A model generated the notes under the pieces. The model was not told the origin of the DNA, did not search any database, and was given only the letters and a program-made list of their open reading frames with translations. DNA of 64,000 bases, taken from assembly GCA_036874045.1 (NCBI GenBank), contig CM072347.1, positions 1,366,501-1,430,500 on the forward strand. The letters are read 5' to 3'. Both the position numbers and the translations under genes were made by a program. Positions 10,797 through 55,900 of this stretch are shown in pieces; within the stretch, counting starts at the first letter, position 1; each line of letters opens with the position of its first letter. Source of the DNA: Cymodocea nodosa (Eukaryota > Streptophyta > Magnoliopsida > Alismatales > Cymodoceaceae).

Positions 10797-13700
10797 ATGG
10801 ATTCAACTCCTCGTTCCTTAGCGTTCTCCCTCCTTCCTTCTTGTACATCTCCAGAGATGATGAGGAAGAAGAGTATTGCAGGAAAAACAGCAACTCCACC
10901 ACGCATGTGTTCCTTAGCCTTAATAATCTTCAATATTGCTGCCACTCTCTTTCTCCACCACCACCATGCAATTGCCCAGAGCAGCCCACCGTCTTCCCCC
11001 AGAAGAACTGACCCAACTGAAGGTATGAATATTCATTCACTACTTCTTCCTCCTCCGGACCTTTTCAGATCAACCAGTCATGTATGTACCATATATATAT
11101 GTGTACGAGTGTATGTGTGTGTGTATATACATGCACACGTTATTGTTTAATTTGCAAGAGTTTTGGAGAATAATTGCTAACAAGCTCCGATCCTCTTATA
11201 TATTGTGCAGTTGAGGCGTTGAACTCCATATTCAGGAAGTGGAACATCTCATCCACCATGTCCAACCTACCTTGGAATCACACTGGCAACGGTAATCCTT
11301 GCACGGGCTACGCCATAACAGCCGACGACAAAATTTGGGATGACTACGTGAGATTCAATCCATCCATCTTGTGCGATTGTAGCAGCAACAATGGCTCTAC
11401 TTGCCATATCATCAGACTGTCAGTCACCACCCATCTTTTCCTTTAACAACTTTGCTATTTATCCATCAAAAAGGTTTTTTTATGTTTTTGAAAGTCAATT
11501 TTATTTTGTAAATAAATATATATATATATAAGAAGAACAATTTCTATTTATAATAGATAATTTTGTGAAGATATACACCTCTCTTTCATGCTATATATCT
11601 TATCTTGTTCCTCACAGATCTTATTGTTTCTAATTAGGACTGCGTATGAATTAAATATCACGGGGACTATTCCGGATGAGCTCAAGAATTTATCAAAACT
11701 GGATAACCTGTAAGTCTTATTGATTACACCCCTTCAAATTTGAAGTGAAAGCTCACAAAAATGGCATGTGTTGTATTCAATAAATTCATTCTAGTTCTCT
11801 TCGATGATTTAGTGTGGTAATCCCACTCCGTTTCTTGGTTATTTGGATCTTGATTTGTTAACCATCTTCATTCTAGTAAGATAAATGAGGTTCTAAGTTA
11901 TGGGGGCGTAACTTCCTTTCCCTATTTCAATAAAAAGGGATACAATATGCAACTTCTATTTCTCAACAAATAATATGTTTTTGTTACTTTTAGCGAAAAA
12001 TATGCTTTCCAAAAATTTATCAAGCTCGTTCCAATATATTTTAAATTTTTCTAAATTGCAGACAAATTGCTGGTAATTACTTGGTCGGTCCTCTGCCAGC
12101 ATTCATCGGAAACTTTTCAGAAATGAAATACTTGTAAGTTTTATACATAAATAAATGTAGTACTAACATGAATGGTTGGTTTCATTTTTGTATCTACGGA
12201 TTAATATTTTACTTCTTTATGCTAAAGGAGCATAGGTAAAAATGCATTATCAGGAGTTATACCAAAGGAGCTTGGAAAACTTCCAGAACTTATTTCACTG
12301 TGAGATAAATAAATTATCCTTTAATTGTGGGCACAGCATACATTCTGATAGTAGTGTGCGCACATTTTACTATGACAAAGGCACTTAATGTTTGATGAGT
12401 ATTTTCTATTTGCAGAGGTATGGGGATGAATAACTTCAATGGTTCGCTTCCACCCGAGCTTGGGAACTTGAAAAGCCTAGAGCAAATGCAAGTGTCTAGA
12501 AATTTCTATCACGGAACTTGTTAACATTTTGTGGTAAATCCATAAAAGGGAAATCATCATCTAACTTTTTTCTTTTTCAACAGTTATATAGACAGTATGG
12601 GAGTCAGTGGAGAAATTCCACCAACATTTGCAAAGCTTAAGAAGTTGAAGATCATGTAAATTTTTAACATTTAACCAAGTCATAAAGACAAGGCTACTCA
12701 AGGCTTTTACATGAAAATATGAATGATTGTCTATATTATTCTCACTACAGGTGGGCATCTGACAATAATTTTGGAGGAAAAGTTCCAGAGTTTCTAGGAA
12801 ATTTGACAAATCTTGAAACCATGTAAGAAGAAATTTATACGATATTGCTTGTTATAGTTGTCTTATGTTTTATTGTCATTCCATGTAAATTATACAATGG
12901 CTAACTACTCACTTACCTTTACACCTACTGTAGGAGGCTTCAAGGCAATTCCTTTCAAGGTCCTATTCCTTCAGGTCTTGGTAACCTTCAAGGTCTTAAA
13001 GAACTGTAAGTATGCTTACTTTTGAAATACATGGGTTCCCAGTATTACATGGTAAACAATTATTTGTAGTGGTTGTAGTATCATAAAGGAAAGCAAGAAT
13101 TAAATATTCCCCATGTTCATTTTGAAGTTAGTTGCTCCTCCCTTTTTCATTTGATGCATTGATTTAGGCGTCTTGGTGACCTCTCAAATGGAACCTCGTC
13201 TTTGGCATTTATTGCAAATATGAAGTCGTTGTCCACCTTGTAAGATTATCAAAAATTTGCTCTCTATTATTCTGTTTTGTAAAATATCAATATTCGATTT
13301 TACAAATTACTAGAATGTTATTCGTGTTTTAACAGAGTCTTGAGAAATGCTAAGATTTCTGATACCATTCCAACTTACATTGGGAATTTTCAAAATATGA
13401 AACATCTGTGAGTGTTGTTTATTTCATTTTATTTTCTTTTACATCAAACTACGAAACAAAGTTTCTCCTTATCTTAATCTTTCGATCATTTCAGGGATTT
13501 AAGCTTCAATAATCTCAAAGGCTTGCTTCCACCTGATCTTTTTAATATGAAGTCACTTGAATACTTGTGAGTGAATTAACTTTTAAGTTCCTAATTGAAA
13601 GGTCTTCTTTGTGTTGCTAATAATTTCATATCGCGCTACAGATTTCTTGGAAATAATAGCATATCTGGTAATGTACCAAGAAAGAAGTCTGGAACTCTTT

Positions 13701-16700
13701 TAAATATGTATGACATGCCATCTCACCTTTTATTTGTGTATCTTTACTTAGTGTTTGATAGAGAAACATGATATTCTCTACTGTTTGCAGTGATCTATCC
13801 TACAACGAACTATCGGGAAGTATTCCTCCTTGGGCTGGTCAAAAGAATCTTCAATTGTAATGTGTTTACTTGCTGCTTTTTTATTTTATTGCTATTGCTA
13901 ACATCTTCTGTAACAAACGGTAAGAAACTTCATTCCATAAATAAAATGGATCCCTGAATTTTTGTAAAGCTAATCCTACTAGTCGATTATTTAATTGTAC
14001 AATTTATAAAAAAAACTACTTCATAAAATAAAATAATGAAACTTTGTGCTTCATATTCATGTTCTTGCATTACAGTAGAATAAATACAAAATACTTGTAA
14101 ACTCTAATTTCTTATAAACAAGATTGAAATTCACCACATGTTCATGTTAAAGCACCGCAATAAATTTTCAAATGCCAATTTCTATATTAACCCTACAACA
14201 TGCACATTTTAGGTGAAAATGCCATTTTACATGTCATTTTCGTTGTTCTTTTATATTTTTTTCTTCAACCTGTGCTCAGCAAAACTTTTCTTTTATTTAC
14301 TACAACCTTTTTTGTTATTTTCCGTACAGGAATTTGGTTGCCAACAACTTTGACACTGATGATTCCGACAAGTGCTTACCTGCACCCATTCTACCTTTAT
14401 GTGAATGAAATTACAAAATTTTTATGCAATATTTATGTGCTTAACATATCCTATTCTTGTATTTTTAGTGTCATGCCAAAGGGTTTGAAGTGCTTGCAAC
14501 GAAATTTCCCATGCTATCGTAATAATCCAAGATGTAAGTATCTTTTCATTGTTTGTACAAGAATATTACCAATTCATGGGAACATGGAGAATTTCTACCA
14601 TTATTTGTTTAATTCATAAACGTTAAATCTACTACCACTGCTTTGCAGATTACTCCTTTGCCATAAATTGTGGTGGTGCTGCAATTATATCATCTAATGA
14701 TACAAACTATGAGGCGGACAATCACAGCTTAACTACTGCATCATATTTTGTAAGAGACACTAAAAGGTGGGCAGTTAGTAGCACTGGAAGATTTATTGAA
14801 TCTCAAAATCCTGAATACGAACAAAGTAGTTCGTCCAAGATCATGAACACTTCAGATCTAGGTCTATTTCAGACTGTAAGGTTATCACCATCTTCACTGA
14901 GATATTATGGTCTAGGGATGGAAAACGGACCATACAATGTGGAACTTCAATTTGCAGAAATTGCTTTTACTGATGACCATGGCTTAAAGAAGAGCTCTGG
15001 GAGACGGATATTTGACATTTATATTCAGGTATGTATGTGACTAGATGAATTGATATGGAAAAAACTTATTAAATAGACTAATGGTTATATGAATATTCAT
15101 ATAATGTAAGGTAATAGAAATCCCTGAATACATACAAATGCAGACACAAATTGCATGGAGCTTGTGGACCCCTTAGTGGGGCCCACAAACTGCAACTGAA
15201 ATGCTATGTGTATATGAAATTCCTATTGATTGGTGATCATAATCTCAATTTTCTTTTCTTTCACCTACCACCAATAGCCACGATTTCACCACCTAACAAA
15301 CATCTTTGACAGTCTCTTCCTCCTCTTCCTCCTCTTCCTCCTCTTTATCTACCATAGCTGTTAGCTTCTAAGGTTCAACCTACTACTACTGTCAGCCTCT
15401 AGGTAGCACTCCAACACTACTCTTAGCCCATAAGGGCTCTTTAGATGCCACCAAAGGGAATTTCATACCTTGTCCTACAACATGCAACAAGGATGAGACC
15501 CCAACAACTCCCTACTACCACCTAAGAAATTTCTCAGGCTTTACCGTCTACATTGTTGTATGTTTTAAAGACTGACGGTCCCAATACTAGTACCTAACTA
15601 CTTGCCTATTGTTTCTTTCACCACTCTCACATCAACATTATTGGATTCTCTCATTGTTGGAGACATTAGGTCTGATCCTTACAAAAATGGCTTCCTCCTC
15701 TACCACAAATGCATTAAACATTACATGAACGATCAATAATACCTTAATAAAGCTGGATAGATGACCAATGTATCTAGCCTTTTCGATTGTTTCTTATTGT
15801 TAAATATGGATTAGTGAGGTCCATTTCTTCTGCTCCACCCTTGAAAATAACTTGGAGGACCAGATTTAAGGCATATGTGGCATATCTGAGCTGCAATTAA
15901 ATCTTACCTCTCTATCTATAGTGGCAACAAAGATACTAAGGGTTCATCTAGGATTCTATGAAATATGAATTAACAATATATTAAATGAATTCACTTTATC
16001 AAAGATGTTAATACATTAATGTTAACTCCTTTTCTTAATTCATTAATAACGTTGCCTCCTTTTCTACCTTTATCAATTTTTTGCATTGTCACGACAATAT
16101 TTTCACAAATCAATCTTTCCCTAAGGAATGTCCCATGCTCTAAAGAGATTCTTTTCTTGACAACACAATAATTTTCTTGAGAATTGGATGCCCAATTAAT
16201 GCCCCTTTAGAAATAATTTTTTCTATTACTTTGTACAACACCTTGCATAAACTAATGGAGTTGAAATAATTAACCTATGCAAATAGCCTTCTCAACCAAT
16301 TCATACATGAGTCGAGAAGATTTCATTGGAAGGGAGTTGTCTATTTTCTTTTCTTGCTTATGTTAAGAATGCACTTAGAAGGGACCATGTACGTAGTGGA
16401 CAGGACCACCTAAGAATTGAGGTGCACTTTGATTCTAATTATGCAGGTAACGAAGGTGATAGAAAATTGACTTTTAGGTTCTACACCTATGTTGGAAGGA
16501 ATCTTTTTACTTGGGAAAGTCAAAAGTAGAATATGAGTTATTCCAGAATTAAGTCATTGTATATATTACAAATTAGTATATAAATTATTTTATATTATAA
16601 TCTAATTACTCCAAATTAAGTCATTAAAGTTTCTTTCACAAATATCAAAAACTGGTACTAAAATTACAAAATTATGACATATCTTCTCAAAATTAAACAA

Positions 16701-19700
16701 ACTTGCTAGCCATGTGGTTAAATTTTAAACCAGTAAGAGTGAATTTCTCATGCATACTATGACTTTTCTTGCTGTAATGTGCCTTAGGGGAATCTCACGG
16801 TTAGAGACTTTGATATAAAAAAGGAAGCTAGTGGAGTTCCCTTCGCAGCAATCAAAAGGCAGTACAAAGCTACTGTCATTCATAATTTTCTTGAAATCCA
16901 CTTGTTTTGGGCGGGAAAGGGAACTTGTTGTCTTCCCACACAAGGTTACTATGGACCGTTAATATCAGCTATTAATGTTACCCCAGGTATGCTGAGTTGG
17001 TGACGTCCAGAACTTGCTTTCATTTTTATTGGGTTATGCATTTCAAACCATCAGTTATTCGGATTAGGCTGCAGTCAAAATGTAAGGACTACGTTCTTTT
17101 TTCAGATTTCAAACCATCTGTTAGCAACCAGCCACCAAACGATACTTCAACAAGGAAGGAAATTGCTTTAATTGTTGGAATTACAGTTGGTATTGTATCT
17201 TGTTTCTCACTATGTATTATTGGAGTTAGTCTATGGAGACGAAAGAGACAACTAAATATGGATGAGGAGGAAGGTAATTCTTGATGATGCTAAATAAAAT
17301 ATTTTTAGTTGACATGGTTTGGCATGTACACAAAGATGTTCATTGTGAAGTGATGGCTTATGCTTGATATGGTTTTCCTGAAAATGCAGAATTACATGGA
17401 TTGGCTGCAGTTCCAAATAGTTTCAGCTATGCTGAATTGAAAAGTGCTACAGAAAACTTTAATGAAGCAAGTAAACTCGGTGTGGGAGGATTTGGAACTG
17501 TCTTTAAGGTGATCCTTATAACAAAAATGTGATCAATTACTCTTAGAAACATCAAATTGCATATTTGAATTTTGCACCTTCCTTCGTCATTTTTGTTACC
17601 GATACTTATGATTGGTGACATCCTAGTTTTAATTAAAAGAGGAATTCATGTAATAAAAGGCAACCTTAAAAAAATCCAGTGGTGAAATTATTGTCACAAG
17701 TCTCAACTAAATTTTATGGACTAGTTTTTAGAGCATATTGCATCAAAAGATCAGAATATCACTTATGGCATAAAATTACCAGTCTCTTTGGTTGGTATTT
17801 TCTGGAAAGTGCATGTTTATCACGTGCTCATGTTGATGTTACCAATTAGTCATGAATCTCCAATTCTACAATTAAATTTCAAAGTATTGGCAACCTTATT
17901 AAAGTGAGATTTTCCTTGCCAACAACTATAATTAAAAGTCAATAAACATCTAATCGACTAGGAGTGTAGACGTAGGCCTGAATGCAGGCACATACATTAC
18001 CATTAAAGAAAAGGTCAATACAAATCTAACACAAATTATCCTGAATCTTGGATTTCTTAAACATTTTAATATGCTGAATTTGTATCATTTGAAATATGCA
18101 GGCTTGTTAGAATAACCTGTATAACTGGATTTTATAATTAATGTAGTGCCACTTTGGGCAACATCTTTATTACTTTCATATGAATCATTTCTCTTTGTTC
18201 CAATTTCATGTATGTAGGTGAATTCACTGATTCTTACATAAACAAGTTAACTTTATTTAATTATGCACTTTATCTGTGAGAATCCTTTTCTAAGTTTTTA
18301 AGTTTCATAGCAATCCGCAAAATTAAACATTGTAAATTAAGTTGATATTTCATATTCATAATTTCCTTTTCCGTACTATGACCATGGAGTTCTAACTATA
18401 AAGTCACTAGTTCCAGATATGATCTAAAAATATTCGATGCTCATGATGTGAGGATGTGTCAATTTTGTCTATCAGGGAATACTTAATGATGGAAGCCCAG
18501 TGGCTGTAAAGCAACTCTCGATGTCTTCACTTCAAGGAAAAGAACAGTTTGTCACTGAGGTTGCTACCATATCAGCAGTGAAACATCGAAATCTAGTAAA
18601 ATTGATTGGTAGCTGCCTTGAAGAAAGTAGGAGGCTCGTGGTTTATGAATACCTGGAAAATGGGAGTCTTGATAGAGTTCTTTTTGGTATGTAGCCAAAG
18701 ACATACATACTCCAATTTCTAGCTTTTTTAGGATGGTAGAAATCCATCACAACATCTAATCAACACTATGCTACTCCTATAATTCAAAGTTACAAAGGTT
18801 GTTATTTCTAAGATTAAAGTAGAATGAAGAAATACTTTTAGAGAATCATGTTGCAGGAATATATCATTAAAATTAAATTATAAAATTATTATTTGCTTGG
18901 TTATACTTTATAGCTCCAAATGCTGAACCATAAAGCATGATTATACGTAAAAAGTTAATTTTACTGAAATTCATATTTTAGATGGATGAGCAAGATAGAA
19001 TCAAAAAATTCATGGTAAATTTGCAAATAGAAAGTTTGCTTACCGTAGTGATGATGTTTTGTTGAATGGGATATATGGTGGAATAGAGGAATGAAGCAGT
19101 GGCTGCTGCTGTTGTGGGCACAGGTAAGAGTGGCTTGCACCTAGACTGGGCAACGCGTTTTAGGATCTGCTTGGACACGGCCAGGGGATTAGCTTATCTG
19201 CACGAGGAATCGAATGTTCGCATCATCCATCGGGACATCAAGGCCAGCAACATCCTTTTGGATGCCGACCTCAACCCCAAGATCTCTGACTTCGGCCTCG
19301 CCAAGCTGTACGACGAACGCAAGACCCACATCAGCACTAGGGTTGCTGGCACCGTGTACGCTTTCAATCAACCCTCTAGTTATTTGATCAATCGACCACC
19401 ACCGATATGGATGTGTATTGTTTCGTCTTCCTGCAGTGGCTACCTCGCGCCGGAGTATGCGATGAGAGGTCATTTGACGGAAAAGACGGACATCTATGCA
19501 TTCGGGGTTGTTGCCCTCGAGATCATAAGTGGGAGGCCCAACACCAGCGATGCCTTCGACGAGGAGAAAAAGTATCTCCTTGAATGGGTAAGTTGTGCCA
19601 ATACCTACGCAAGTAGTGACGTACACAACACTAATGCTTTTGTTGATTGAAGGCCTGGCAGCTCCACGAGGAGGGCCGCAGTATGAAGCTGATAGACCCA

Positions 19701-19979
19701 ACGCTTTCATCTTACGAGGAAGAAGAGGTTCGCAGAGTGATGGTGGTGGCTTTCCTGTGCACCCAACTCAACCCACTCCTCCGCCCATCGATGTCACGTG
19801 TGGTGGCGATGCTCGTGGGCGACGTCGAGCTTGGAGAAGTCCCCACCAAACCAACCTTCTTGTCGGACTGGCATTTCGATGAGCTCAAGGAAATGACCAC
19901 CACCAGCTCTTCTTCAGCTACTTATCATGGACAAGGCTCCTTGTCCGCAAACGACATTGTCGAAGAAGGGGGTAGATAG
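10797..19979 (+). CDS. Gene B: complete LRR-malectin receptor-like Ser/Thr kinase
   Basis: 24 exons: 10797-11022, 11211-11418, 11638-11709, 12062-12133, 12228-12299, 12416-12487, 12584-12655, 12751-12822, 12934-13005, 13168-13239, 13336-13407, 13495-13566, 13642-13707, 13791-13856, 14330-14371, 14469-14533, 14649-15028, 16788-16986, 17106-17273, 17390-17508, 18476-18686, 19124-19355, 19437-19587, 19653-19979. They sum to 3,180 nt, one open frame of 1,059 residues. Signal helix about 38-57 ([16 protein letters not shown]); cap with [10 protein letters not shown]; ten 24-residue LRRs plus two of 22 (about 145-428); malectin-like domain about 465-656; membrane helix about 678-700; kinase about 735-1010. 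Kinase motifs: GVGGFG 744-749, Lys765, Glu781, HRD 859-861, DFG 879-881, APE 905-907, all canonical for an active RD kinase. It should be a plasma-membrane receptor with cytosolic kinase; ligand unknown. Intron 6 starts with GC. The ATG chosen is conserved in E and F. Confidence 0.95.
12488..12583 (+). other. GC-AG intron 6 of gene B
   Basis: LRR exon 6 must end at 12487 to keep its 72-nt, phase-2 form, and the next bases are GCAAGT. The acceptor is CAACAG before 12584. The same GC donor is present in D (38875) and E (53956). GC-AG introns are a known minority class that favours the GCAAGT consensus seen here. Confidence 0.85.
15029..16787 (+). other. Intron 17 of gene B (1.76 kb)
   Basis: The first about 970 bp match intron 17 of gene A over most of its length, including the pyrimidine-rich stretch near 15305-15350 (repeats of TCCTCCTCT). 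The middle holds a copia fossil. The last 90 bp match A again up to the acceptor at 16787. This places A and B in one lineage, apart from C, D and E, whose intron 17 is only about 660 bp and unrelated. Confidence 0.75.
16000..16690 (+). mobile_element. Fossil Ty1/copia fragment in intron 17 of gene B
   Basis: The insert sits at the same intron point as the one in gene A. Between about 16250 and 16550, conceptual translation resembles the RNase H end of copia pol: a [12 protein letters not shown] segment followed by [16 protein letters not shown], compare the usual DWAGD..DRKST..G..FF.G..ISW.SKKQ. It is a broken fragment with no recognisable full LTR pair. Different parts of pol survive in A and B, so both may stem from one insertion in their shared ancestor followed by separate losses. 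That is inference. Confidence 0.6.
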
Positions 19980-20399
19980 ATGGTAGTGTGCTCTGTTTCT
20001 TCTGTCATTCGAAGTTTCGATACTGAACTTTTCCACGGTACAGGAACGATGAATACTCGTCGAGTAAGTAGTCTTATTTATGATCTTTGTTAAATTATCA
20101 AGTTTACTTACGTGTACAAATGTTGAAATGTATTGGGTTTGGGATTTTAGATGATCTAACCTTAAAATTTAGACATTAATGATTAATTACCTTGTATTAA
20201 TATGATCAATTAATACTGGTTGGGTTTAGTAACCTGACAATGAATCCTAGGTGGTTCCCTGGAATGATGGAAAACGACAATGAAGGCCGAACAAATTAAA
20301 CCAATCTTCGCTTTATTATCTAAAGGTAAAATAAATTTTTGTGTGTCCTCATTTTATACGCTAGACAAATTATGATCGTTTCTGCATCGGTTCCTTTTT
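19980..20399. other. 3' flank of gene B
   Basis: Probable 3' UTR and flank. A short R1 fragment (TTATCTAAAGGTAAAATAAATTTTTG) stands at about 20318-20343, and a weak copy of the ACTGGTTGG..GGTGGTTCC module precedes it. No gene is seen. Confidence 0.5.
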
Positions 20400-22473: not shown

Positions 22474-22560
22474 ATGTTTGTTTTCGTTGGAGATAAAGAG
22501 TTGTTCATTACTTACGGTACCAGCTCCTTGTTCCTCCTTCCTTCTTGTACATCTCCAGAG

Positions 22561-31500: not shown

Positions 31501-32564
31501 TATAATATATATATATATCTATATATTATATATCTTGCTATTAAATAAAAATCTTCATAAATTTGAAGATAGAATGTTAAATTATCGTACCAAAGATGTT
31601 TTGTAGAATGGGATTTATGTTGGAATAGAGGAATGAAATAGTGCATATTTTTGTTGTGTCGATGATGGTCACAGGTAAGAACGGTTCGCACCTAGATTGG
31701 GCGACACGCTTCAAGATTTGCTTGGGCACAGCTAGAGGCTTGGCTTACTTGCACGAGGAATCAAACATACGCATCATCCACAGGGACATCAAGGCTAGCA
31801 ACATCCTCCTTGATGTCGAACTCAACCCCAAGATATCTGACTTCGGCCTCGCAAAGCTCTACGACGATCGCATGACCCACATCAGCACTGGGGTTGCCGG
31901 CACCATGTACGCATCCAGTGATTAAATTAAATCGACCTTGTAGTTATATAATCAATCGACCACCACCAACATGGTGTTTTGTTGTTTTTATCTTTTTACA
32001 GTGGTTATCTTGCGCCAGAGTATGCAATGAGAGGTCGTTTGACAGAAAAGGCCGATACATTCGCTTTCGGGGTTGTTGCTTTTGAGATCATATCTGGGAG
32101 GCCGAGCACCAACGCCTGCTTGGAGGAAGAGAAGCAGTATCTCCTAGAATGGGTACTTTCCATGTACTTGTATGTACAAGTGATGCCAGTACCAATATAT
32201 AAGTAGTAATGTTTACAACACTTGGATGTCTTTGTTGAAGGCCTGGCGACTCCATGAGGAGGACCACGACATGGAATTGATAGACCCAACACTTTCGTCA
32301 TATGAGGAAGAAGAGGTTCGCAGAATGATGGGGGTGGCTCTCTTGTGCACCCAACTTAAACCACACCTCCGCCCGTCCATGTCTCATGTGGTGGCGATGC
32401 TTGTGGGCAACACTGAGCTTGGAGAAATCCCCACCAAACAAGCCTACATGTCAGATTGGTATTTCAATGAGCTCGAAAAGATGAGGCCGACCATTCCTGC
32501 TTCTGTTACTTATGGAGGAGGTATCTTGCCTACAACCGACATTACCAAAGAAGTGGGGAGATGA
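22561..32564 (+). CDS. Gene C: LRR-malectin receptor-like kinase, one non-canonical splice site
   Basis: 24 exons: 22561-22726, 22946-23153, 23310-23381, 25183-25254, 25349-25420, 25544-25615, 25712-25783, 25879-25950, 26062-26133, 26288-26359, 26465-26536, 26624-26695, 26786-26851, 26933-26998, 27546-27587, 27686-27750, 27867-28249, 28909-29107, 29743-29910, 30033-30151, 31015-31225, 31675-31906, 32002-32152, 32241-32564. They sum to 3,120 nt, 1,039 residues. The ATG at 22561 aligns with internal Met21 of gene B. An in-frame ATG at 22474 would add 29 residues of former 5' leader. Either start leaves the hydrophobic signal segment. Kinase motifs GVGGFG, VAVK, TEAATIS, HRD, DFG and APE are all present. 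Exon 17 has one codon more than in B. The activation segment reads ISTGVAGT where A and B have ISTRVAGT. The donor of intron 6 is GA, so normal joining of exons 6 and 7 is doubtful. Function as for B, with lower confidence in a full-length product. Confidence 0.88.
23480..25085. other. Insertion in intron 3 of gene C
   Basis: Intron 3 is 1.8 kb here but about 350 bp in gene B. The added sequence is AT-rich. Inside, two copies of a roughly 49-bp segment (24131-24179 and 24213-24261) share GGAGACGTCT, a TTAGA..GACCACTCCC stretch and AAAACTAAT, with an 82-bp period. This could be the subterminal repeat region of an old DNA transposon, but I find no terminal inverted repeats, target duplication or coding remnant, so the class is left open. 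Confidence 0.4.
25616..25711 (+). other. Intron 6 of gene C with a GA donor
   Basis: The exon/intron border reads CAAAT then GAAAGT, where B, D and E have CAAAT then GCAAGT. The acceptor is normal. GA donors are almost unknown. A GT four bases downstream would shift the frame. Skipping exon 6 (72 nt, phase 2 at both ends) would keep it. Confidence 0.85.
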
Positions 32565-42700: not shown

Positions 42701-45700
42701 TACCACACTACTTCTACGTATGAACTTCAAATTGTATGCAATGTAGAGTATCACACTATTCTTAGATAAAATTTAAAATTATTTAAATTTTCAATATATT
42801 TGGATATGATATATAAATATTTTCCATATCATATGTATTTGATGCAATTAATATGATGCAAATGAGACATCTTCTTTTTAAAATGTGTAATGTACAAAAT
42901 TATTGGTTAATTTTTGAAAAATCTTACTTATTACAAATATATATCATCTTTTAATATCATTTAATATTTATAATAGGAGAAAAAACCACTTATGCTGTTT
43001 TTTCAGATTTCAAGCCAACTGTCAGCAATCAACCACCAAACAATACTTCAGAAAGGAAGAAAACTGCTTTAATTGTTGGAATTATAGTTGGTATTGTATC
43101 TTGTTTTTCACTCTGTATCATAGGAGTTTGTGTATGGAGAAGAAAGAGGGAAGTGAACATGGATGAGGGCGAAGGTAATTATATTCTTGATGATGCTAAA
43201 TAAATTATTTTTAGTCGACATGGTTAGACATGCAACACAATGATGTTCATTGCAAAGTGTTAGCTTCTACTTGACATGGCCTTTTTGAAAATGCAGAGTT
43301 ATATGGATTGGCTACAATTCCAAAGAGTTTCAGCTATGCTGAATTGAAAAGAGCTACAAAAAAATTTAATGAAGCAAATAAACTTGGCGTGGGGGGATTT
43401 GGAGTTGTCTTTAAGGTGATCCTTATAGAAAAACATTACCAATTACTCTTAGAACTAGTAAAGTGTATATTTAAAATTTGTACTTTCCTTGATCGTATTT
43501 CTTACCAATTCTCTATTTATGATTGGTGGCATCCAAGCTTTAATTCAATAATAAAAGGAAAACCTTAAAAATTCCAACGGAGGAATTGTTGCCACAACTC
43601 TCAACTAAATTTTATGGACTAGTTTTTAGAACATATTGCATTCAGAAGATCACCTATAGCATAAAATTTCTTAGTCTCTTTGGTTTGTATTTTCTAGAAA
43701 GTGCATGTTTATCATGTGCATCTATATGCTGATGCTACCAATTAGCCATGAACCTCCAATTCTGCAATTAAATTCCAAAGTACCGTAACCTTATTAAAGT
43801 GAGTTTTCTCTTTCCAGCAAATGTAGTTAACAATCAATAAACGTCTAATCCAATTATCCTGAATCTTGGATTTCTTAAGCAGTTTAATTTGCTGAATTTC
43901 TTCCATTTGAAATATGCAGGCCTGTTAAAATAATTTGTATAACTAATGTAGCGCCACTTTAGACGTCATATGAATCATTTCTCTTTGTTCCAATTTCATG
44001 TACGTGGATGAATCCATTGATTCTTACGTAAACAACTCAAAATTTTTTAATTATTTACGCAACTTTCAAAGTAGCGGTGCACTTGTATCTGTGAGAATCG
44101 TTTCCCAAGTTTCCAAGTTTCATCACAGTCTGCTAAATTAAAGCACTGCAAATTAAGCTGATATTTCATATTCATGGTTTCCATAGTTTCCATGCCCTAC
44201 CTGCCACCAGTTCCAAATATGAGGGATCTAAAAATATTCTATGCTGATGTGTGGATGTGTCAAATTTTTCTTTATCAGGGCATAGTTAATGATGGAACCC
44301 CAGTGGCTGTGAAGCAACTCTCATTTTCTTCACTTCAAGGGAAAAAACAGTTTGTCACCGAGGCTGCCACCATATCAGCAATCAAACATCGAAATCTTGT
44401 AAAATTGCTTGGTTGCTGCGTTGAAAAAGACAACAGTCTCCTAGTCTATGAATACATGGAAAATGGAAGTCTTAATAGATTTCTTTTTGGTATGCAGCCA
44501 AAGTAGACATACATACTCCGATTCCTGGTCTTTTTTTTGGGACGGTATCACAACCACTGATCACCCCCATGCCACTCCTATACTTCCAAAATTATAAAGG
44601 ATGCTATTGATAGAATTAAAGTATAATGGATAAAGTGGAGTGATACTTTTAGAATATTATGTAATAACAAGCTACCATTAAAATTAAAAGAAAAATTCTA
44701 TAAAACCATTATTTGATTAGTTATTTCTTTATAGTTCAAAAATGCTAGATTGTAAGATTGTCTATATAATATATATATATATCTATATATTATATATCTT
44801 GCTATTAAATAAAAATCTTCATAAATTTGAAGATAGAATGTTAAATTATCGTACCAAAGATGTTTTGTAGAATGGGATTTATGTTGGAATAGAGGAATGA
44901 AATAGTGCATATTTTTGTTGTGTCGATGATGGTCACAGGTAAGAACGGTTCGCACCTAGATTGGGCGACACGCTTCAAGATTTGCTTGGGCACAGCTAGA
45001 GGCTTGGCTTACTTGCACGAGGAATCAAACATACGCATCATCCACAGGGACATCAAGGCTAGCAACATCCTCCTTGATGTCGAACTCAACCCCAAGATAT
45101 CTGACTTCGGCCTCGCAAAGCTCTACGACGATCGCATGACCCACATCAGCACTGGGGTTGCCGGCACCATGTACGCATCCAGTGATTAAATTAAATCGAC
45201 CTTGTAGTTATATAATCAATCGACCACCACCAACATGGTGTTTTGTTGTTTTTATCTTTTTACAGTGGTTATCTTGCGCCAGAGTATGCAATGAGAGGTC
45301 GTTTGACAGAAAAGGCCGATACATTCGCTTTCGGGGTTGTTGCTTTTGAGATCATATCTGGGAGGCCGAGCACCAACGCCTGCTTGGAGGAAGAGAAGCA
45401 GTATCTCCTAGAATGGGTACTTTCCATGTACTTGTATGTACAAGTGATGCCAGTACCAATATATAAGTAGTAATGTTTACAACACTTGGATGTCTTTGTT
45501 GAAGGCCTGGCGACTCCATGAGGAGGACCACGACATGGAATTGATAGACCCAACACTTTCGTCATATGAGGAAGAAGAGGTTCGCAGAATGATGGGGGTG
45601 GCTCTCTTGTGCACCCAACTTAAACCACACCTCCGCCCGTCCATGTCTCATGTGGTGGCGATGCTTGTGGGCAACACTGAGCTTGGAGAAATCCCCACCA

Positions 45701-45828
45701 AACAAGCCTACATGTCAGATTGGTATTTCAATGAGCTCGAAAAGATGAGGCCGACCATTCCTGCTTCTGTTACTTATGGAGGAGGTATCTTGCCTACAAC
45801 CGACATTACCAAAGAAGTGGGGAGATGA
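36711..45828 (+). CDS. Gene D: LRR-malectin receptor-like kinase with two extra LRR exons
   Basis: Exons: 36711-36954, 37343-37550, 37707-37778, [37919-37990, 38082-38153 extra], 38442-38513, 38608-38679, 38803-38874, 38971-39042, 39138-39209, 39321-39392, 39550-39621, 39727-39798, 39886-39957, 40048-40113, 40195-40260, 40810-40851, 40950-41014, 41131-41513, 42173-42371, 43007-43174, 43297-43415, 44279-44489, 44939-45170, 45266-45416, 45505-45828. Without the extra pair the frame gives 1,065 residues; with it, 1,113. Both read through in frame. Exon 1 is unlike the others after [10 protein letters not shown], with a Met-rich stretch (MTMMMMEM) before the signal helix ([17 protein letters not shown]). 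Kinase motifs are complete. From exon 15 on, the protein is practically the same as gene C, because the region lies in the recent duplication. Intron 6 uses a GC donor. Expected role: plasma-membrane receptor kinase. Confidence 0.92.
37057..37076. repeat. (TG)n microsatellite in intron 1 of gene D
   Basis: A TG dinucleotide run, followed to about 37230 by imperfect GTATGT/ACATGT repeats. Open frames across it on both strands are artefacts of the repeat. The same intron has shorter TA/TG tracts in B, C and E. Confidence 0.9.
37919..38153 (+). other. Extra LRR exon pair inside intron 3 of gene D
   Basis: Two stretches have exact 72-nt, phase-2 LRR form: 37919-37990 (acceptor AAAG, donor GTAAGT) reads [17 protein letters not shown] and on to KYL, and 38082-38153 (acceptor ATGTAG, donor GTGAGA) reads [19 protein letters not shown]. 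They resemble exons 11-12 of the family, with a short intron between, but are clearly more diverged from this array's own exons 11-12 than those are from one another. The source is probably a different paralogue. Left junction is near 37914, within array-type intron 3 sequence. Confidence 0.8.
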
Positions 45829-47503
45829 TGCTCTCTTTCTTTTTGATCCGTAAAATATGGATACTGATCTCTTCCACCTTAGATTAGGCTTTATATACAT
45901 TAGAATGCATTTCTAATGTGGTCTTCCACGTTGCATAGAATTAAGTAAAATCAAGCTTCCATCCATATGTGCAGGCAAATTGTTTGTGTTTTTGCTTCAA
46001 CCAATATATCTCCCATTGAGGAGAATTTTAATTTCCATCCATCCATGTTACCTTTCATTCCATGGAAATGTTATCATCTGGCGAAATCCATATTATCATC
46101 TAATGTAAAATAAATTTTCTTGTAATAAAAATTTATTATCTAGATGTAAAATAAATTTCCAATCGATTGCAAAACCAATAATTAAATATTAACTTCAAGT
46201 ATATGCAATTCCATTACTTTTTAAGCATCATATCATGTAAAAATACTACCCTCAAAAGTAAAATTTATTTAAACTTGCATGGCATGATTTCTAGTATGTT
46301 CTATAGATTTAATTTCATAAATAACCAAGTGCTTATTTAAATAATTAATACCACCAAAAGATCTACAAAATTTATATTACAGGTAAACTCTCTTCTTTAT
46401 AGTGTCACTGTAGTAAAATTTGACCATATTCCAACTCTTCTATAATTGGTCGATGAAGCTCCTCTAAGGAATGCCATAGTTTCTATGAGCTACAATACTA
46501 CGAGAATTCCTAGTAGCTATGGAATATCTTGGTTGTTTAAGTTTGTTTAAGTATGCCATAATTCAATATGCCGTTTTTAAGAATACCCACTCGTATTCTG
46601 TTGACTTAGGTGCTCAAATTGGACGATGTTAGTACAAGCTAGTTCTATCAAACAACAGCTTAACATGTTCTAGTTCTATCAAATAATGGTTCTAACATAA
46701 TCTAAAAAATTCATGTTAAACCGATCAACAATACAATTTAATCATATTACATCAGGCTATCATAGTTTGACCTAGTTCAATTGACAACTCGACAAGAAAG
46801 AAAACTTTGATTTCAATTCTAACAAAATCTTATATATTTATTTATATATCTATCTATTTATTTGTATTATCAGTCAATAAATTTTGATCAAGACAACCTA
46901 CGTATTCTAAGTAAATTGAATAAAATAAAAATAAATTTCCAACCCATGGCCAACCTGACCCAGTCTGTACAAACTCAAGTTATAAATCGAACCAATACTT
47001 TATGAACCAGACCGACCTGTCCTAGCTTATTGGCATCTCTAACTTCAAATTAATTGAACTCACTGGCAAATGAAAAAAAAAAGGCTTAACAAGTTTTAAA
47101 AGTTTTGGATTTTGCTTAAATAAATCGTAACAGATTTTAAGGAAAATCAAAAGGAATCCTGACAGTTTGCAGTCACTCGTTTTTCTAAAGACGTAAAATT
47201 TAAAAGAAGTTAAATTGCGAATGATTTTTGTTCAGATTTTTACGTAATTTTTCAAAATCCGATTTTAAAATCGAAACAAAGATTTCGAATCCCTGGTCTC
47301 GTGCTTGATCTTTCGTTAATTAGACCGAAGACTTTTTAACAACATTCCAAACCAATTAACGTTGGTTGTCAAACTTCAAATTAATTAATTCGATTGATGC
47401 TTATCATCGCTTCACTTAGAACAAATATTCCAACGACTTATCGATTGGGGGCCGTTTGACTCCCATTTCATCCATGAATATATACATATTATCATCTTTC
47501 TAT
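45829..47503. other. Intergenic D-E, proximal part
   Basis: Copy of the C-D interval, with only an occasional base change (for example TTTATGAACC near 47002 against TTTTTGAACC). No additional element is visible. Confidence 0.6.
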
Positions 47504-49974
47504 ATTTATATTATTATTATTATTATTGAAAAGTAAAATAAATATTTGTGCAATAAAAATTTCTTATCTAAAGGTACCTACGTCGAATAAAATTTTATAT
47601 AATAAAAAATATAATTTAAAGGTAAAAAACATTCTCATTTGGTTGCGAAACCAACTACCAATGCCACTAACCAATTTTTATATCATAGAAAATCCGCAAG
47701 AAATAACTTAAACATGAGTTGAAATATAACAAAAATACCAAAGATACCCATTCTTGTAATTTACTCTCACGCAAAAAGAAAAATAAATAAATAAATTGTT
47801 AACTTCAATGGCAGCTACATTTTTTGACAATATATAAAAGTTAAACAACACGAATCCCTGTCACGAGGACTTCTTTAGATGGTCTTTGTCATTTTTGCTC
47901 AAAGCATTATTTATTTGAAAGTGAAATAAATCTTTATTACATTAAAATTTCTTACCTAAAGGTAAAATTAATTAATTTTCATTCGGTTGCAAAACCTTAA
48001 TCAATTTTTTTTTAGTCTTGCAAAATCTACGAGAGAGATAGAACATGTTGACTTCAGCGATAACTGCAGAAACACAATAAATTAATTAATAGACCTTAAT
48101 TTGCTATTGACGCAGTTGCATATATATTCCAAAGAAATCAAATGTTAATATTAATGCAAATTGAAATTTCTCACACGTATTGTGACCAGTAGTTTCATGA
48201 AGACAATGAAAGCCAAACAAAACAAATTCATTTTCATATTTTTATATCTATTACTTGTTAATATCAATGCTGGTTGGTTGGACCTTTTCAACTATATATC
48301 CTAAGTGATTTCAAGGAAATGACAAGAAAAATAAGATAATGATAAATTAGAATGTGAATAATGACTGAAAAAGAGCACAAATGTAGCTGCAAAATAATCT
48401 CTAGTGATAAATAAACTTATTGACAAAGACCAAAAAACCGCTTACGTTTCGTCTGAGGCAAATTTTAAAAATGCTAGATTATATTTCAATGTCAAAAAAG
48501 AACTTTGTTATTGCAATGACCTTCTAACTAATAATCAAGTAAACTTTAGGTTTTTCTTTCTTGCAATAAAATAAAAAATATAAAATTATAATCAACTCGA
48601 CGAGTGTAAACACCATTGAACGGGGTACAACTGGACGATAAGGAAGTTTATATTTTTCATCGCAAGTTTAAAATCGGTCTATGAAAATAAATCTTGCAAA
48701 AAAAAAAAAAATATTTACATAAGTCAGTCACATTTATTTACAATAAATATTATCGACCACATGAAGTTTGAGAGGTCTCTTCTGTCTATTTCTAATCTAA
48801 ATCTGAATATCAAACTTTTCAAATCCTTTTGATTATAATTAGTATTAGTGTAAGTTGAATTTTGTGACACATTAATTGTTTGGGGATTCATGACAAGTGG
48901 CAAAGCAAAACAATATAAATTTGCGTTAGACTTTTCTTGATCCACATTATTATTTGAAAGTAGCGTAGACTGTCACGTACAAATGACAAACAAAATAAAT
49001 TCATTTCTCGGAAACTTCTCGAGTAGCCGTAGCAGTGTCGACTTCTCTCTGAGTTTAAAACCAGTCAATAAACTTTTCTTATCATACAAAATATATAAGA
49101 GAAAAAATTAATTTCAAATCATACAAAACCACAACAAAAATCCGTTCATCTCCTCTTGCACAGGGTGCAAAGGTTGCCCTTGTCCCTCATCCAAGAAATC
49201 AATCGTCAATAGTACCAATTCTAGTTGGACTTTTTAAACACACGGCAAATGGCTTCAAGGAAAACGACGTTGAAAATGAAACATATGTAATGCGTTGTAT
49301 GAAGCTTTTAAAATAGAAAATGTTAAAAAGTTACATTTAAGAGCTTTTAAAACAAACGCGTCTAGCGTCTTCTCTCCGAGAAGTAGAACTGACCCAGCTG
49401 AAGGTACGGCACACGTACATGTATGGATGCTGTTTAATTAAAAAGAATGTTGAGGATCTTGATATTTAGGAAGGGGAATATCGCATCCATTATGTCCAAC
49501 CTACCTTCGAATAATTTAGCTAGTCTTCATCATTTTTGCTGAAAACATTATTATTTGAAACTGAAATAAATTTCTTACCTAAAGGTAAAATTAATTAATA
49601 AATTCATTCAGTTGCAAAACCTTAATCAAATTTTTTTATCTTGCAAAACCCATAAGGGAGATAGAAAATGTTTTGCAGAAGCACAATAAATTAGTTAATA
49701 GACCTTAATATATATATATTGGTCCCCATTCCAAAGAAATCAAACGCTAATATTAATGCAAATCGAATTTTACCACACATATCGCGATCGGTAGTTTCAC
49801 GATAAAACTAAAACAATGAAAGTCAAACAAAATTAATAAATCCATTTCCTGGTAACTTCTCGACTGCCTTTCGAAAGTTGGAAGCGGTGTTGATGTTTGT
49901 AATTTCCATATACTTCTTATTTTTATGTTTGCTTTCGTTTAAGTGTTGTTCTATCTATTAAAGGTGTAGCAGTG
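47504..49974 (+). repeat. Promoter block of gene E
   Basis: Essentially the D promoter again, with R1 at about 47504-47664, 47907-48064 and 49546-49699, R2 at 48604-48950 and a TA run at 49708-49720. Close to the ATG it switches to B-like bases (TTTCGTTTAAGTG rather than the TTTCGTTGAAGTG of D). Confidence 0.7.
49365..49513 (+). pseudogene. Relic of exons 1-2 in the promoter of gene E
   Basis: Mixed type: it has the D-like AGGAAGGGGAATATC and CCATTATG, but the B-like CCTTCGAATAA at its end. That suggests a crossover or conversion end within or just after the stump. Confidence 0.85.
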
Positions 49975-52900
49975 ATGGATTCAACTCCTCGTTCCTTAGC
50001 GTTCTCCCTCCTTCCTTCTTGTACATCTCCAGAGATGATGAGGAAGAAGAGTATTGCAGGAAAAACAGCAACTCCACCACGCATGTGTTCCTTAGCCTTA
50101 ATAATCTTCAATATTGCTGCCACTCTCTTCCTCAACCACCACCATGTAATTGCCCAGAGCAGCCCACCGTCTTCTCCAAGAAGAACTGACCCAACTGAAG
50201 GTATGAACATTCATTCACTACTTCTTCCTCCTCCGGACCTTTTCAGATCAACCAGTCATGTATGTACCATATATATATGTGTACGAGTGTATGTGTGTGT
50301 GTATATACATACACACGTTATTGTTTAATTTGCAAGAGTTTTGGAGAATAATTGCTAACAAGCTCCGATCCTCTTATATATTGTGCAGTTGAGGCGTTGA
50401 ACTCCATTTTCAGGAAGTGGAACATCTCATCCACCATGTCCAACCTACCTTGGAATCACACTGGCAACGGTGATCCTTGCACGGGCTTCGCCATAACAGC
50501 CGACGACAAAATTAGGGATGACAAAGACAGATTCAATCCATCCATCTTGTGTGATTGTAGCAGCAACAACGGTTCTACTTGCCATATCATCAGACTGTGA
50601 GTCATCACCCATCTTTTCCTTTAGCAACTTTGCTAATTATCCATCTAAAAGGTTTTTAATTTCTTGAAAGTCAATTTTATTTTGCAATATATATAAGAGG
50701 AATAATTTCCATTTGTAATAGATAATTTTGTGAAGATGTACACCTCTCTTTCATGTTATATATCTTGTCTTGTTCCTCACAGATCTTATTGTTTCTAATT
50801 AGGACTGCATTTAAATTAAATATCACGGGGACTATTCCAGATGAGCTCAAGACTTTTTCAAAGCTAGATAACCTGTAAGTCGTTTTGATTATACTCCTTT
50901 AAATTTCAAGTACTACAAGCTCACAAAAATGGTATGCGTTGTATTCAACGTTCATGCATGTAGATAATTTGAAGAACAAATTCATCTACTTCTCTTCAAT
51001 GATTTAGTGTGGTAATCCAATTGAGTTAAATGAATCTTGATTTGAATGATCAAAATTCAAACTCTTACTTTGCATCTGATCCAATAATGTTCATCACAAA
51101 AAATTTTAGTAAATAAGACACTTTACCTGATTGACGGTTGTGCATCATGACAATCCATCAATCGAATGGGATTGACTGAATAAATTTTAATGCCCATGAT
51201 TTGCATCCAAAACATTTGGATAATTTCTCAAATACTTATATCTTCATTTTTAAGATGTTAGATTTCATTTTAGATACATTTTATCTTGTATTTAGAACAT
51301 TTTAATTTTAATTCCTTGGATCTTTATATTTCTATATCTAAGACAACTATCTAATTTTATTGTTAATATATTTTTCTTTATATCCAAAATATTTTAATTT
51401 TTTCATTTCTTAGATATTCATATTTCTATATCTAAGATATTTAATTTTATTTTTGATACTAATATTTTGTGTCTAAAACATTTTTTATTTTTACTTTATA
51501 TACTTATATGTCGTATCTAAAGAACTTTGGTTTAATTTCTTAGATCTTTATATTTTATATCTAAGAAATTTAATAATTTCTTATTTTAAACACTTAAATT
51601 CAACATCTAAATATTTTGATTCTAATTTTTTATATATTTTATATTTAAGATATTTAATTATATTTTTAAGTAGTTGTATTTTATCGAAAATATGTTTTTA
51701 AAACCTTACGAATTAAATCTATCAGATTAGTTAACTTTACAAACCTTGCATAAATATAACAAATTAATTGTTTTTGGATAAATATAATTTTAATAAATTT
51801 TGAAGGAAAATTTCAATTTGACTAAATTTCTCCTTCTTTTTAATAGATATATTTTTAAAACTTGATCAAATTGAAGAAACATTTCGATTTGATCAAATTT
51901 TATCTATAAATTATTATTATTTTATTCATTCATTTTTTTTTTAATTTTTTATTCATTTATTTTTTTTATCAAGAGTCCTTTGGTCAAATTGAAATTATTA
52001 TTTATACCTCACAATTTTTAAGTCTTTCAATTTTGGTTCAATCGAAATTTGAATATATATATACTATTATTTATCAAAAATTTTATAACTTGCGAATTTA
52101 CGAAAATTACGAAAAAATTTTATAACATTTCGTTTAGAAATTACGGAAAATAGTAACTTGATCAGTGTTTCTCTTTCGTATATCATATGTAGGAAAGGTA
52201 ATATTAAAAAATAATAACCCAAATGGTGTTTATCTTTCTGTATTTTATAAAAGAAAAGCTATAAAAAATATATAAAATATTGAGAGATAACAACTACAAG
52301 GACGTCTATCTTCTTTATATTTTACAAAAGAAGAATTATAAATAATAGGTTAAAAATTAGAAGATAAGAATCTAGTTATTTGGATCTTGATTTGAATGAC
52401 CAAAATTCAAACTCTTATTTTGCATCTGATCCAATAATGTTCATCACAAAAAATTTTAGTAAATAAGACACTTTACCTGATTGACGGTTGTGCATCATGA
52501 CAATCCATCAATCGAATGGCGTTCACTGGATCGATTACCCAATTCAAGATACAAAAACATGGGGAACTGGGGTTTAGCTTGGACAATCATGAGTCTCACG
52601 TTTTTATTGTCAAGCAGATGACCAACCATACAACTATACAAGCATAGGCCTAATCATACATTGCATGTTCATCATTTGACATGCCAACCTACTTGCCATG
52701 TCATTTGTGGGCCCCACGAATCCATGACAACTCAGACACATCTCCTAGAATTAATGTGTGTCGATTTGTTTCCTTGAATGCCAGTCTCAAGTAAGTTTGG
52801 GTCAATACGTTTTAGTTCCAGATGGAATCAAGTATGGATTGGATGTATGACTTGCCATACCCATATTTGTTTTTATTTTTAGAATATGAACACTAATATA

Positions 52901-55900
52901 AATGCATGCCAGATATGAAAAATTAAAATGATCGAATAAATTATAATTCAAGAATGATTAAAAACGAACTAATGTCAAGCATTATACTATTGTTATTCGT
53001 TTCCAATTCTTAAATATTTATAAGATAAATACAAATTAGGATGTGGCTATATTATTTTTGTATAAATAAAAATAAGGTACGGATCACGTTTAACTGGGTA
53101 TTTGACAACATAAATAAAATTTATTTTCGCATTTATTATCTTCACATTTTAAATCCTTTGAACCGTAAAATATCTCTCTATTATTTTAATTTAGGACTAA
53201 TTCTTAACTTACTTAGCAAATGATATACGTTAGGATATTTCTCTTACATTTCTTTAGTTATTTCATGCACAATTAAATACAGACTTGAAGAGGACCCCTA
53301 GTGTAAACCTATGATTTTTGGAAATTTTTTAATTTCTCTTCTTATAATTTTAATATTAATAATTGCTCCTTCACACTTATCCCTTGTAAAATATCAATAT
53401 AACCTATGAGTACTCTTTTTCTTTTTAAAACTAATTACAAAAGGTTTTTAGGTGCTTCTAGTGAAAAACATTATTTTCAAAAATTTATTGGGCTCATTCC
53501 AATATATGTTAAATTTTTCTAAATTGCAGACAAATTGCTCAAAATTACTTGGTTGGTCCTCTGCCAGCATTCATTGGAAACTTTTCGGCAATGAAATACT
53601 TGTAAGTTTTATATATAAATAAATGTAGTACTACCGTGAATGGCTGGTTTCATTTTTGTATCTACGGATTAATATTTTACTTCTTTATGCTAAAGGAGCA
53701 TAGGTAAAAATGCATTATCAGGAGTTATACCAAAGGAGCTTGGAAAACTTCCAGAACTTATTTCACTGTGAGATAAATAAATTATCCTTTAATTGTGGGC
53801 ACAGCATACATTCTGATAGTAGTGTGCGCACATTTTACTATGACAAAGGCACTTAATGTTTGATGAGTATTTTCTATTTGCAGAGGTATGGGGATGAATA
53901 ACTTCAGTGGTTCACTTCCACCCGAGCTTGGGAACTTGAAAAGCCTAGAGCAAATGCAAGTGTCTAGAAATTTCTATCACGGAACTTGTTAACATTTTGT
54001 GGTAAATCCATAAAAGGGAAATCATCATCTAACTTTTTTCTTTTTCAACAGTTATATAGACAGTATGGGAGTCAGTGGAGAAATTCCACCAACATTTGCA
54101 AAGCTTAAGAAGTTGAAGATCATGTAAATTTTTAACATTTAACCAAATCATAAAGACAAGGCTACTCAAGGCTTTTACATGAAAATATGAATGATTGTCT
54201 ACATTGTTCTCACTACAGGATTGCATCTGACAACAATTTTGGAGGAAAAGTTCCTGAGTTTCTTGGAAATTTGACAAATCTTCAAACCCTGTAAGAAGAA
54301 ATTTCTACGACATTACTTGTTATATTGTCATGAAAGGCTAACTACTCACTTAGCTTCACACCTATTGTAGGAGGCTTCAAGGCAATTCCTTTCAAGGTCC
54401 TATTCCTTCAAGTCTTGCTAATCTTCAAGGTCTGATCGATCTGTGAGTATGCTTACTTTTGAATTGCATAGGTTTCCACATGATGAATAACTATTTGTAG
54501 TCGATGTTGTGGCATGAAGGAAAGCAAGTAAATTCCTAACAAGCATTAAATATTCCCCATGTTTATTTTGAAGTTAGTTGCTCCTCCCTTTTTCATTTGA
54601 CGCATTGATTTAGGCGTCTTGGTGACCTCTCAAATGGAACCTCGTCTTTGGCATTTATTGCAAATATGAAGTCGTTGTCCACCTTGTAAGATTATCAAAA
54701 ATTCTCTCTATTATTTTGTTTTGTAAAATATCAATATTGGATTTTACAAATTACTAGAATGCCATTTTAACATAATCTTGAGAATGCTAAGATTTCTTAT
54801 GCCATTCCAATTGACATTGTGAAGTTTCAAGATTTGCAACATTTGTGAGTATTGTTTATCTCATTTTATTCTACTTTACATCAAACTGCAAATCAAAGCC
54901 TCTCGTTATCTTGAGTTTTTGATCATTTCAGGGATCTGAGCTTCAATAATCTCACAGGCACGCTTCCACCTGATCTTTTTAATATGAAGTCACTTGAATA
55001 CCTGTGAGTGAATTAAACTTTTAATTTCCTAATTGAAAGGTCTTCTTTGTGTTGCTAATAATTTCATATCGTGCTACAGATTTCTTGGAAATAATAGCAT
55101 ATCTGGTAATGTACCAAGAAAGAAGACTGAAAAGCTTTTAAATATGTATGGCATGCCATCTCACCATTTATTTGTATATTTTTACGTAGTGTTTGATAGA
55201 GAAACATGATATTCTCTACTGTTTGCAGTGATCTATCCTACAACGAACTATCGGGAAGTATTCCTCCTTGGGCTGCTCAAAAGAATCTTCAATTGTAATG
55301 TGTTTACTTGCTGCTTTTTTATTTTGTTGCTATTGCTAACATCTTCTGTAACAAACGGTAAGAAACTTCATTCCATAAATAAAATGGATCCCTGAATTTT
55401 TGTAAAGCTAATCCTACTAGTCGATTATTTAATTGTACAATTTATAAAAAAAACTACTTCATAAAATAAAATAATGAAACTTTGTGCTTCATATTCATGT
55501 TCTTGCATTACAGTAGAATAAATACAAAATACTTGTAAACTCTAATTTCTTATAAACAAGATTGAAATTCACCACATGTTCATGTTAAAGCACCGCAATA
55601 AATTTTCAAATGCCAATTTCTATATTAACCCTACAACATGCACATTTTAGGTGAAAATGCCATTTTACATGTCATTTTCGTTGTTCTTTTATATTTTTTT
55701 CTTCAACCTGTGCTTAGCAAAACTTATTCTTTTATTTACTACAACCTTTTTTGTTATTTTCCGTACAGGAATTTGGTTGCCAACAACTTTGACACTGATG
55801 ATTCCGACAAGTGCTTACCTGCACCCATTCTACCTTTATGTGAATGAAATTACAAAATTTTTATGCAATATTTATGTGCTTAACATATCCTATTCTTGTA

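Follow-up and report, generated by a model that had tools for sequence, protein, structure and literature searches.

Modular 72-nt leucine-rich repeat exons, and local departures from them, in a tandem cluster of LRR-malectin receptor kinase genes of Cymodocea nodosa

We analysed a 64,000-nucleotide (nt) stretch of Cymodocea nodosa DNA (assembly GCA_036874045.1, contig CM072347.1, positions 1,366,501 to 1,430,500; hereafter the window, in whose own numbering all positions are given), which is a tandem cluster of plant leucine-rich repeat (LRR)-malectin receptor kinase genes, comprising the end of gene A, genes B, C, D and E, and the start of gene F. The explanation we favour, with moderate confidence, is that ten repeats are the older, conserved state, that the copies diversify mainly through substitutions on the exposed face of the repeats together with recombination, and that the modular exons tolerate accidents such as those in C, D and E. 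Each repeat of the main array corresponds to one 72-nt phase-2 exon, while the copies would diverge chiefly at exposed residues of the concave face, and recombination or gene conversion between neighbours would mix them. As to the accidents, E most likely yields a receptor without repeat 11, C would either skip repeat 6 or use a cryptic donor, and D carries, after exon 3, an old counterpart of exons 11-12 that probably stems from another LRR-malectin lineage and may be spliced in.

Splice sites and alignment gave 24-exon models of B, C, D and E:

Gene B, 10857-19979, plus strand: 24 exons, 1039 amino acids (aa), with LRRs, malectin, a hydrophobic stretch and kinase; the reference copy, with ten 72-nt LRR exons.
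Gene C, 22561-32564, plus strand: open with exon 6 (1039 aa) or without exon 6 (1015 aa).
Gene D, 36780-45828, plus strand: 1042 aa without two extra exon-like sequences, X1 and X2; 1090 aa with both.
Gene E, 50035-60837, plus strand: a 1021-aa open reading frame with exon 11 omitted.

The full 24-exon reading is open in B, C and D but not in E. A whole-protein Pfam scan, which covered B, returned LRR models, Malectin (E 4.8e-42) and kinase (E 1.2e-45), and the transmembrane segment of B is a hydrophobic stretch in exon 19, judged by eye. This fits the build of the LRR-VIII-2 (LRR-malectin) kinases, with several LRRs followed by a malectin domain (PF11721), a transmembrane segment and a kinase (PMC7783096). 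The B ectodomain (a 582-residue query) is also homologous to a solved protein of LRR plus malectin build, matching PDB 9hhu_A over residues 2-582 (E 4e-183), and on these matches the cluster is one of LRR-VIII-2 type LRR-malectin receptor kinases. CORK1/AT1G56145-type kinases of this group share the LRR-malectin-transmembrane-kinase order, and 9hhu_A covers nearly the whole ectodomain of B; compared with them, the cluster differs in its tandem mosaic copies, in a damaged LRR exon in both C and E, and in the two extra exon-like sequences of D. We take PDB 9hhu to be CORK1 or a close relative, which fits the spacing of a pair of phenylalanines, while the database entry says only serine/threonine protein kinase. 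The pair lies in the malectin domain (QFAEI and RRIFDIY in B, LHFVEI and RRVFDIY in C), that of B being aligned to 9hhu_A, and its equation with F520/F539 of CORK1 rests on a spacing of 19 in 9hhu_A. Both phenylalanines are conserved in all Arabidopsis malectin receptor-like kinases (RLKs; PMC9563578), so the pair does not single out CORK1.

The main LRR array of the reference copy is as follows:

B exons 3-12, 11638-13566, plus strand: ten 72-nt phase-2 LRR exons; exon 6 donor GC at 12488.

As the initial annotation had reported, each of these ten exons measures exactly 72 nt and is in phase 2 at both ends; acceptors are AG and donors GT, save for the GC of exon 6. Its statement that single LRR exons can be removed in frame also held, as each of exons 3-12 of B skips without frame loss; over the whole gene, single skipping keeps the frame to the normal stop in 14 of the 22 internal exons (3-12, 13, 14, 15 and 19). 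Across B-E, 39 of the 40 exons numbered 3-12 are 72 nt long, exon 11 of E (71 nt) being the exception, and the array has the phase-2, split-leucine form described from rice. There, in LRR kinases of complex structure, the LRR exons are mostly 72 nt with phase-2 introns splitting the first leucine of xxLxLxx, and exon duplication with shuffling has been proposed (PMC3050792); what is different here is that a single-exon lesion or insertion separates cluster neighbours.

The order of the repeats is strongly held. For all 40 exons the three nearest relatives are the same-numbered exons, with the lowest same-number identity (60/72) well clear of the highest between different numbers (43/72); recent tandem growth of the array was ruled out on this grouping (40 of 40). 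Against 9hhu_A, the LRR region of B aligns ungapped over 292 residues with 148 identical (51%), each repeat sharing 9 to 15 of 24. Hidden LRR exons were looked for in the third introns of C and E and none was found:

C intron 3, 23382-25182, plus strand: 1801 nt, for the most part not related to the third introns of B, D and E; searched for an LRR exon, none found.
E intron 3, 50875-53529, plus strand: 2655 nt; a 146-nt direct repeat lies within it (51024-51169, 52374-52519); searched for an LRR exon, none found.

Judged from these alignments, ten repeats look like the older, conserved state, and the deviations in C, D and E look local.

The clearest deviation is in E, for which nine repeats had been proposed from a broken splice site:

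E exon 11, 54774-54844, plus strand: acceptor AG changed to AT plus a 1-nt deletion (71 nt); the exon 11-exon 12 stretch is D-like, its flanks B-like.

The acceptor is lost as described, and the exon carries in addition the 1-nt deletion, which the proposal had not mentioned. With exon 11 omitted, the other 23 exons of E form an open frame of 1021 aa, and among the models tested E is open only in this way; five alternative AGs (from 40 nt into intron 10 to the end of exon 11) and retention of intron 10 all fail to keep the frame, while skipping exon 11, or 11 and 12 together, keeps it. With exon 11 unreadable and the gene open once it is skipped, the most likely product of E is a receptor without repeat 11. 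If lesions were simply placed at random, a splice lesion and a frameshift would coincide in one frame-neutral exon with a probability of ~0.015, and in any one exon with 0.043. Outside the LRRs, the changes private to E fall in 8 nonsynonymous (N) and 16 synonymous (S) codons (p=7.7e-6 vs neutral), which argues that E was a working gene through much of its separate history.

The lesion in C leaves more ways out:

C exon 6, 25544-25615, plus strand: donor GA (25616) vs GC in B, D and E; an in-frame cryptic GT lies 6 nt downstream (25622).

Nine repeats had been suggested for C as well; the donor of exon 6 is indeed broken, but skipping is not forced, since the GT at +6 (78-nt exon) and two GC dinucleotides inside the exon (42 and 66 nt) are alternative donors that keep the frame. 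Retention of intron 6 breaks the frame in C, and in each of the four genes it leads to an early stop. The three genes B, D and E share a GC 5' splice site at exon 6, GCAAGT after T (12488, 38875 and 53956), so the donor was already unusual before the change in C; in plants, GT-AG makes up 97.9% of splice pairs and minor types together ~0.09%, with GC-AG below 1% in model organisms (PMC7072748). C would either skip repeat 6 or use a cryptic donor, and skipping would not be obligatory. Computed U1 duplex energies did not separate the GC and GA donors of exon 6 (-3.3 and -3.5) from ordinary donors (-10.3 to -0.7), and were not used as evidence, as a summed energy gives positions +1 and +2 no special weight.

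C and E might instead be young pseudogenes, in which the splice lesions were the first disabling hits and repeat number has changed in no working protein. LRR exons make up about half of all exons, so lesions would have landed there, and with 14 of 22 internal exons frame-neutral, two lesions out of two in such exons are expected by chance at 0.40, a figure on which the initial argument also fails, namely that damage on frame-neutral exons suggests relaxed selection on repeat number or selection for new ectodomains. The early stop on intron 6 retention fits too, as does the age of C: its coding sequence is identical to that of D in exons 17-18 and 20-24 and differs at 1 of 168 sites in exon 19, so the body of C has had too little time to show its own constraint. 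However, neither C nor E (without exon 11) has a further stop or frameshift over more than 1000 codons, both disabling changes of E sit in the same exon, the private changes of E outside the LRRs are strongly synonymous, and those of C (12 N:12 S) also depart from neutrality (p=0.004). On balance we consider it unlikely that the two genes are pseudogenes, and prefer the reading in which modular exons tolerate such accidents.

In D, twelve repeats had been suggested from two additional exons in intron 3:

D X1, 37919-37990, plus strand: lies in intron 3; a 72-nt phase-2 sequence like an LRR exon, homologous to exon 11.
D X2, 38082-38153, plus strand: lies in intron 3; a 72-nt phase-2 sequence like an LRR exon, homologous to exon 12.

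Both are present as proposed, each exactly 72 nt, stop-free and in phase 2 with AG...GT borders, and the frame of D is kept with X1, X2 or both included; a protein read with both would have twelve repeats. X1 matches exon 11 at 45/72 nt in B and D and 44 in C (the 71-nt exon 11 of E was left unscored), with other-numbered exons at 37 or fewer, and X2 matches exon 12 at 45/72 in B and 47 in C, D and E. Their order is that of exons 11-12, the intron between them is similar in length to intron 11, and the match of X1 to exon 11 of B (45/72) is the best among unannotated places of the window, the runner-up scoring 40/72. Scored with an LRR profile made from 39 exons of B-E, X2 reaches 18.8 bits against a best of 7.5 among 40 dinucleotide-shuffled windows, whereas X1 alone reaches 1.8 bits, not above the shuffles. 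When D is translated with both, Pfam LRR models span the joints (LRR_8 at 20-79; LRR_14 at 16-131, slightly below cut-off).

The pair is not young. Against exons 11-12 of B, C and D its nonsynonymous divergence (dN) is 0.36-0.41 and its synonymous divergence (dS) 1.2-2.3, the latter over ~29 synonymous sites and near saturation; the proportion of synonymous differences (pS) is 0.13 for B-C and 0.07 for B-D. A recent copy of D exons 11-12 was thereby ruled out (dS >1 vs pS 0.07-0.13 between genes), and by this measure X1-X2 is much older than the divergence of the cluster itself. Of its 48 residues, 23 are shared with each of B, C and 9hhu_A and 21 with D. We infer that X1-X2 is an old exon pair, probably from another LRR-malectin lineage, that was under coding constraint for most of its history; it may alternatively be an ancient duplicate lost by B, C and E. 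Transposon cargo between the 9-nt direct repeats TAGTGTAAA was rejected as uninformative: of six other mostly non-coding stretches, five show 3.0-9.6 such 9-mer repeats per kb at the same spacing, and the sixth shows none.

Whether X1-X2 reaches the protein is another matter, and the chances seem to us about even that it is a dead fossil, brought into intron 3 of D by recombination and never spliced in, a history compatible with the explanation we favour. A search of the third introns of B, C and E found nothing resembling the pair, X1 is no better than shuffles with the general LRR profile, and an AG 7 nt upstream of X1 outscores its own acceptor (4.0 vs 2.6) while giving a 79-nt exon and a frame shift. 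Set against this are the exact 72-nt length and open frame of both sequences, a dN well below dS, and the fact that the 144 exonic nt show no length change while the intron between them has three gaps relative to intron 11. The splice sites are also unexceptional by local standards: on a small matrix built on these genes, the acceptors of X1 (2.6) and X2 (5.4) fall within the annotated range (-0.7 to 13.2, some below 2, apart from the broken exon 11 of E at -2.9), and donor energies of -6.2 and -4.4 are likewise within range. The boldest version, an LRR cassette system in which D splices in a foreign exon 11-12 pair taken up from another LRR-malectin lineage, the shared GC donor renders repeat 6 optional and E has lost repeat 11 for good, giving nine to twelve repeats on one malectin-kinase chassis, strikes us as distinctly improbable.

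Substitutions within the repeats are better supported as a sign of diversification. With exon 11 of E excluded, the exposed xxLxLxx residues carry 25 N:2 S changes vs 31 N:30 S elsewhere in the repeat (Fisher p=8.9e-5); among 23 rotations of the exposed mask the true one captures most changes, and 6 of 2000 random masks reach it. The proportion of nonsynonymous differences exceeds pS at exposed sites in all six gene pairs. Private amino-acid changes fall at exposed sites in 7 of 12 cases in D (p=0.005), 3 of 12 in B, 0 of 4 in C and 2 of 3 in E, differences that may bear on ligand binding. Positive selection across the LRRs of D as a whole was rejected, the private changes there (11 N:1 S) giving p=0.19 vs neutral.

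Recombination has left its own trace. Across aligned exons 1-23 and introns other than 3, 17 and 18, 356 informative sites divide the genes two and two, 342 of them as BE/CD, 11 as BC/DE and 3 as BD/CE; over exons 1-13 with their introns the pattern switches 14 times where 25.1 are expected (fewer than in any of 10000 permutations). Exon 11 and intron 11 hold seven of the 14 minority sites as BC/DE sites, and exon 12 is identical in D and E, which places E exon 11 in a D-like stretch. C and D also share a long repeat unit:

Near-identical unit, 25105-36971 vs 38365-50217, plus strand: 98.5% by self-comparison; its 5' boundary falls within intron 3, and most differences lie in LRR exons 4-14 and the last 0.4 kb.

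Between 25105 and 27105, successive blocks of 500 aligned columns hold 27, 8, 35 and 24 differences between C and D; over the next 9.5 kb each such block holds 0-3, and the last piece 44 in 339. The kinase exons of C and D are identical, with E close to both. From 27606 to 36605 and in the D counterpart, ~9 kb contain only 6 differing sites, and this near-identity may reflect very recent duplication or conversion, or an assembly artefact. Separately, exon 1 and intron 1 of D (36780-37342) are an outlier among the four genes (~0.85 and 0.65-0.68 identity), unlike the 3' half of D.

These patterns bear on the idea, raised in the initial annotation, that repeat number itself is selected or relaxed and that the neighbours diversify by losing and gaining LRR exons (nine, ten, twelve). 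The frame-neutral exon design would suit it, as would E being open with nine repeats, D being open with both extra exons under Pfam LRR models that cross the joints, and the GC donor of exon 6 in three genes. But each of the ten repeats has its counterpart in all four genes and in a relative sharing 51% identity, so that number is otherwise conserved; the placement of the lesions is not significant, the rice LRR kinases mostly have the same 72-nt phase-2 exons (PMC3050792) so that the design needs no local cause, and the diversification that is seen lies at exposed residues. We regard this idea as improbable. The underlying observation was right, and somewhat understated for E and C, while its interpretation was half right: modular exons would tolerate loss and gain, and E probably lives with nine repeats. 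Selection for new ectodomains, its other suggestion, finds support in the exposed residues and less in repeat number, and residue change with recombination appears the better supported route to new ectodomains.

Several points weigh against our preferred account, in which an older array of ten repeats is diversified by exposed-face substitution and recombination. That ten is older is judged from one solved relative and four related genes; at exposed sites the nonsynonymous excess falls short of significance vs neutrality alone (p=0.07), and none of the six pairs reaches a dN/dS of 1 over LRR exons 4-12 (0.35-0.77). The mosaic signal rests on 14 sites, with 342 of 356 supporting the single grouping BE/CD, and the purifying signal in E may be older than its lesion. 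For X1-X2, the private residues tie: five occur in 9hhu_A but not in B, C or D, and as many in all of B, C and D but not in 9hhu_A, which favours neither side as the source lineage; the constraint may belong to its source gene, and a stop-free pair is weak evidence, as 3102 of 20000 neutral simulations are also stop-free.

The remainder of the window holds further parts of the cluster. The left edge lies inside gene A, from the malectin exon on; the kinase of A has NFG (3991-4218) where B-E have DFG, so A may be a catalytically dead kinase. At its 3' end, two exact copies of a 138-nt unit (4786-5067) span the last codons and further, and downstream, at 5603-6124, lies a gene remnant, an internally deleted second copy of the last two kinase exons (23-24). 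The right edge falls inside exon 1 of gene F, whose 5' region is 99.6% identical to that of B (62865-64000 vs 9844-10979), so the cluster extends past the window; an exon-2-like fragment lies upstream of F exon 1 at 63299-63358. Exon 19 of E is 189 nt long vs 168 in B, C and D; a frame-keeping 21-nt tandem repeat lies in the hydrophobic segment (58058-58104).

Modular LRR exons are documented in other systems. In MtSERK3, splice variants without exon 3, which encodes the first LRR, have been described (PMC3061892); an LRR receptor kinase likewise lacks one LRR exon there, but by alternative splicing in RNA, while here the loss would follow from a genomic lesion. The brown-algal LRR-ROCO proteins, an unrelated family, have one 72-bp phase-2 exon per LRR, with exon shuffling and alternative splicing of LRR exons (PMC11378527), whereas the arrays here hold order and number, the extra pair of D aside. 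Human NLRP3 has frame-preserving modular LRR exons and single-exon skipping, but these are 171-bp exons in an animal NLR with skipping seen in RNA (PMC6642158). Among the titles listed in a literature search, none is on LRR-exon number differences among tandem LRR-malectin kinases, though this is no proof of absence.

Should E indeed lack repeat 11 and D include its captured pair, the cluster would offer naturally occurring versions of one receptor that differ in having nine, ten or twelve repeats, in which the roles of single LRRs in LRR-malectin receptors could be asked directly. In LRR-RLK paralogues of recent origin, positive selection has reportedly affected the LRR more than any other domain, predominantly at four positions (Fischer 2016, via PMC5380761), and in expanded clusters LRRs are among the commonest domains with selected codons (PMC4049390). 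The exposed-face substitutions and recombination described here point to diversifying pressure on the cluster, as reported in these expanded LRR-RLK groups.

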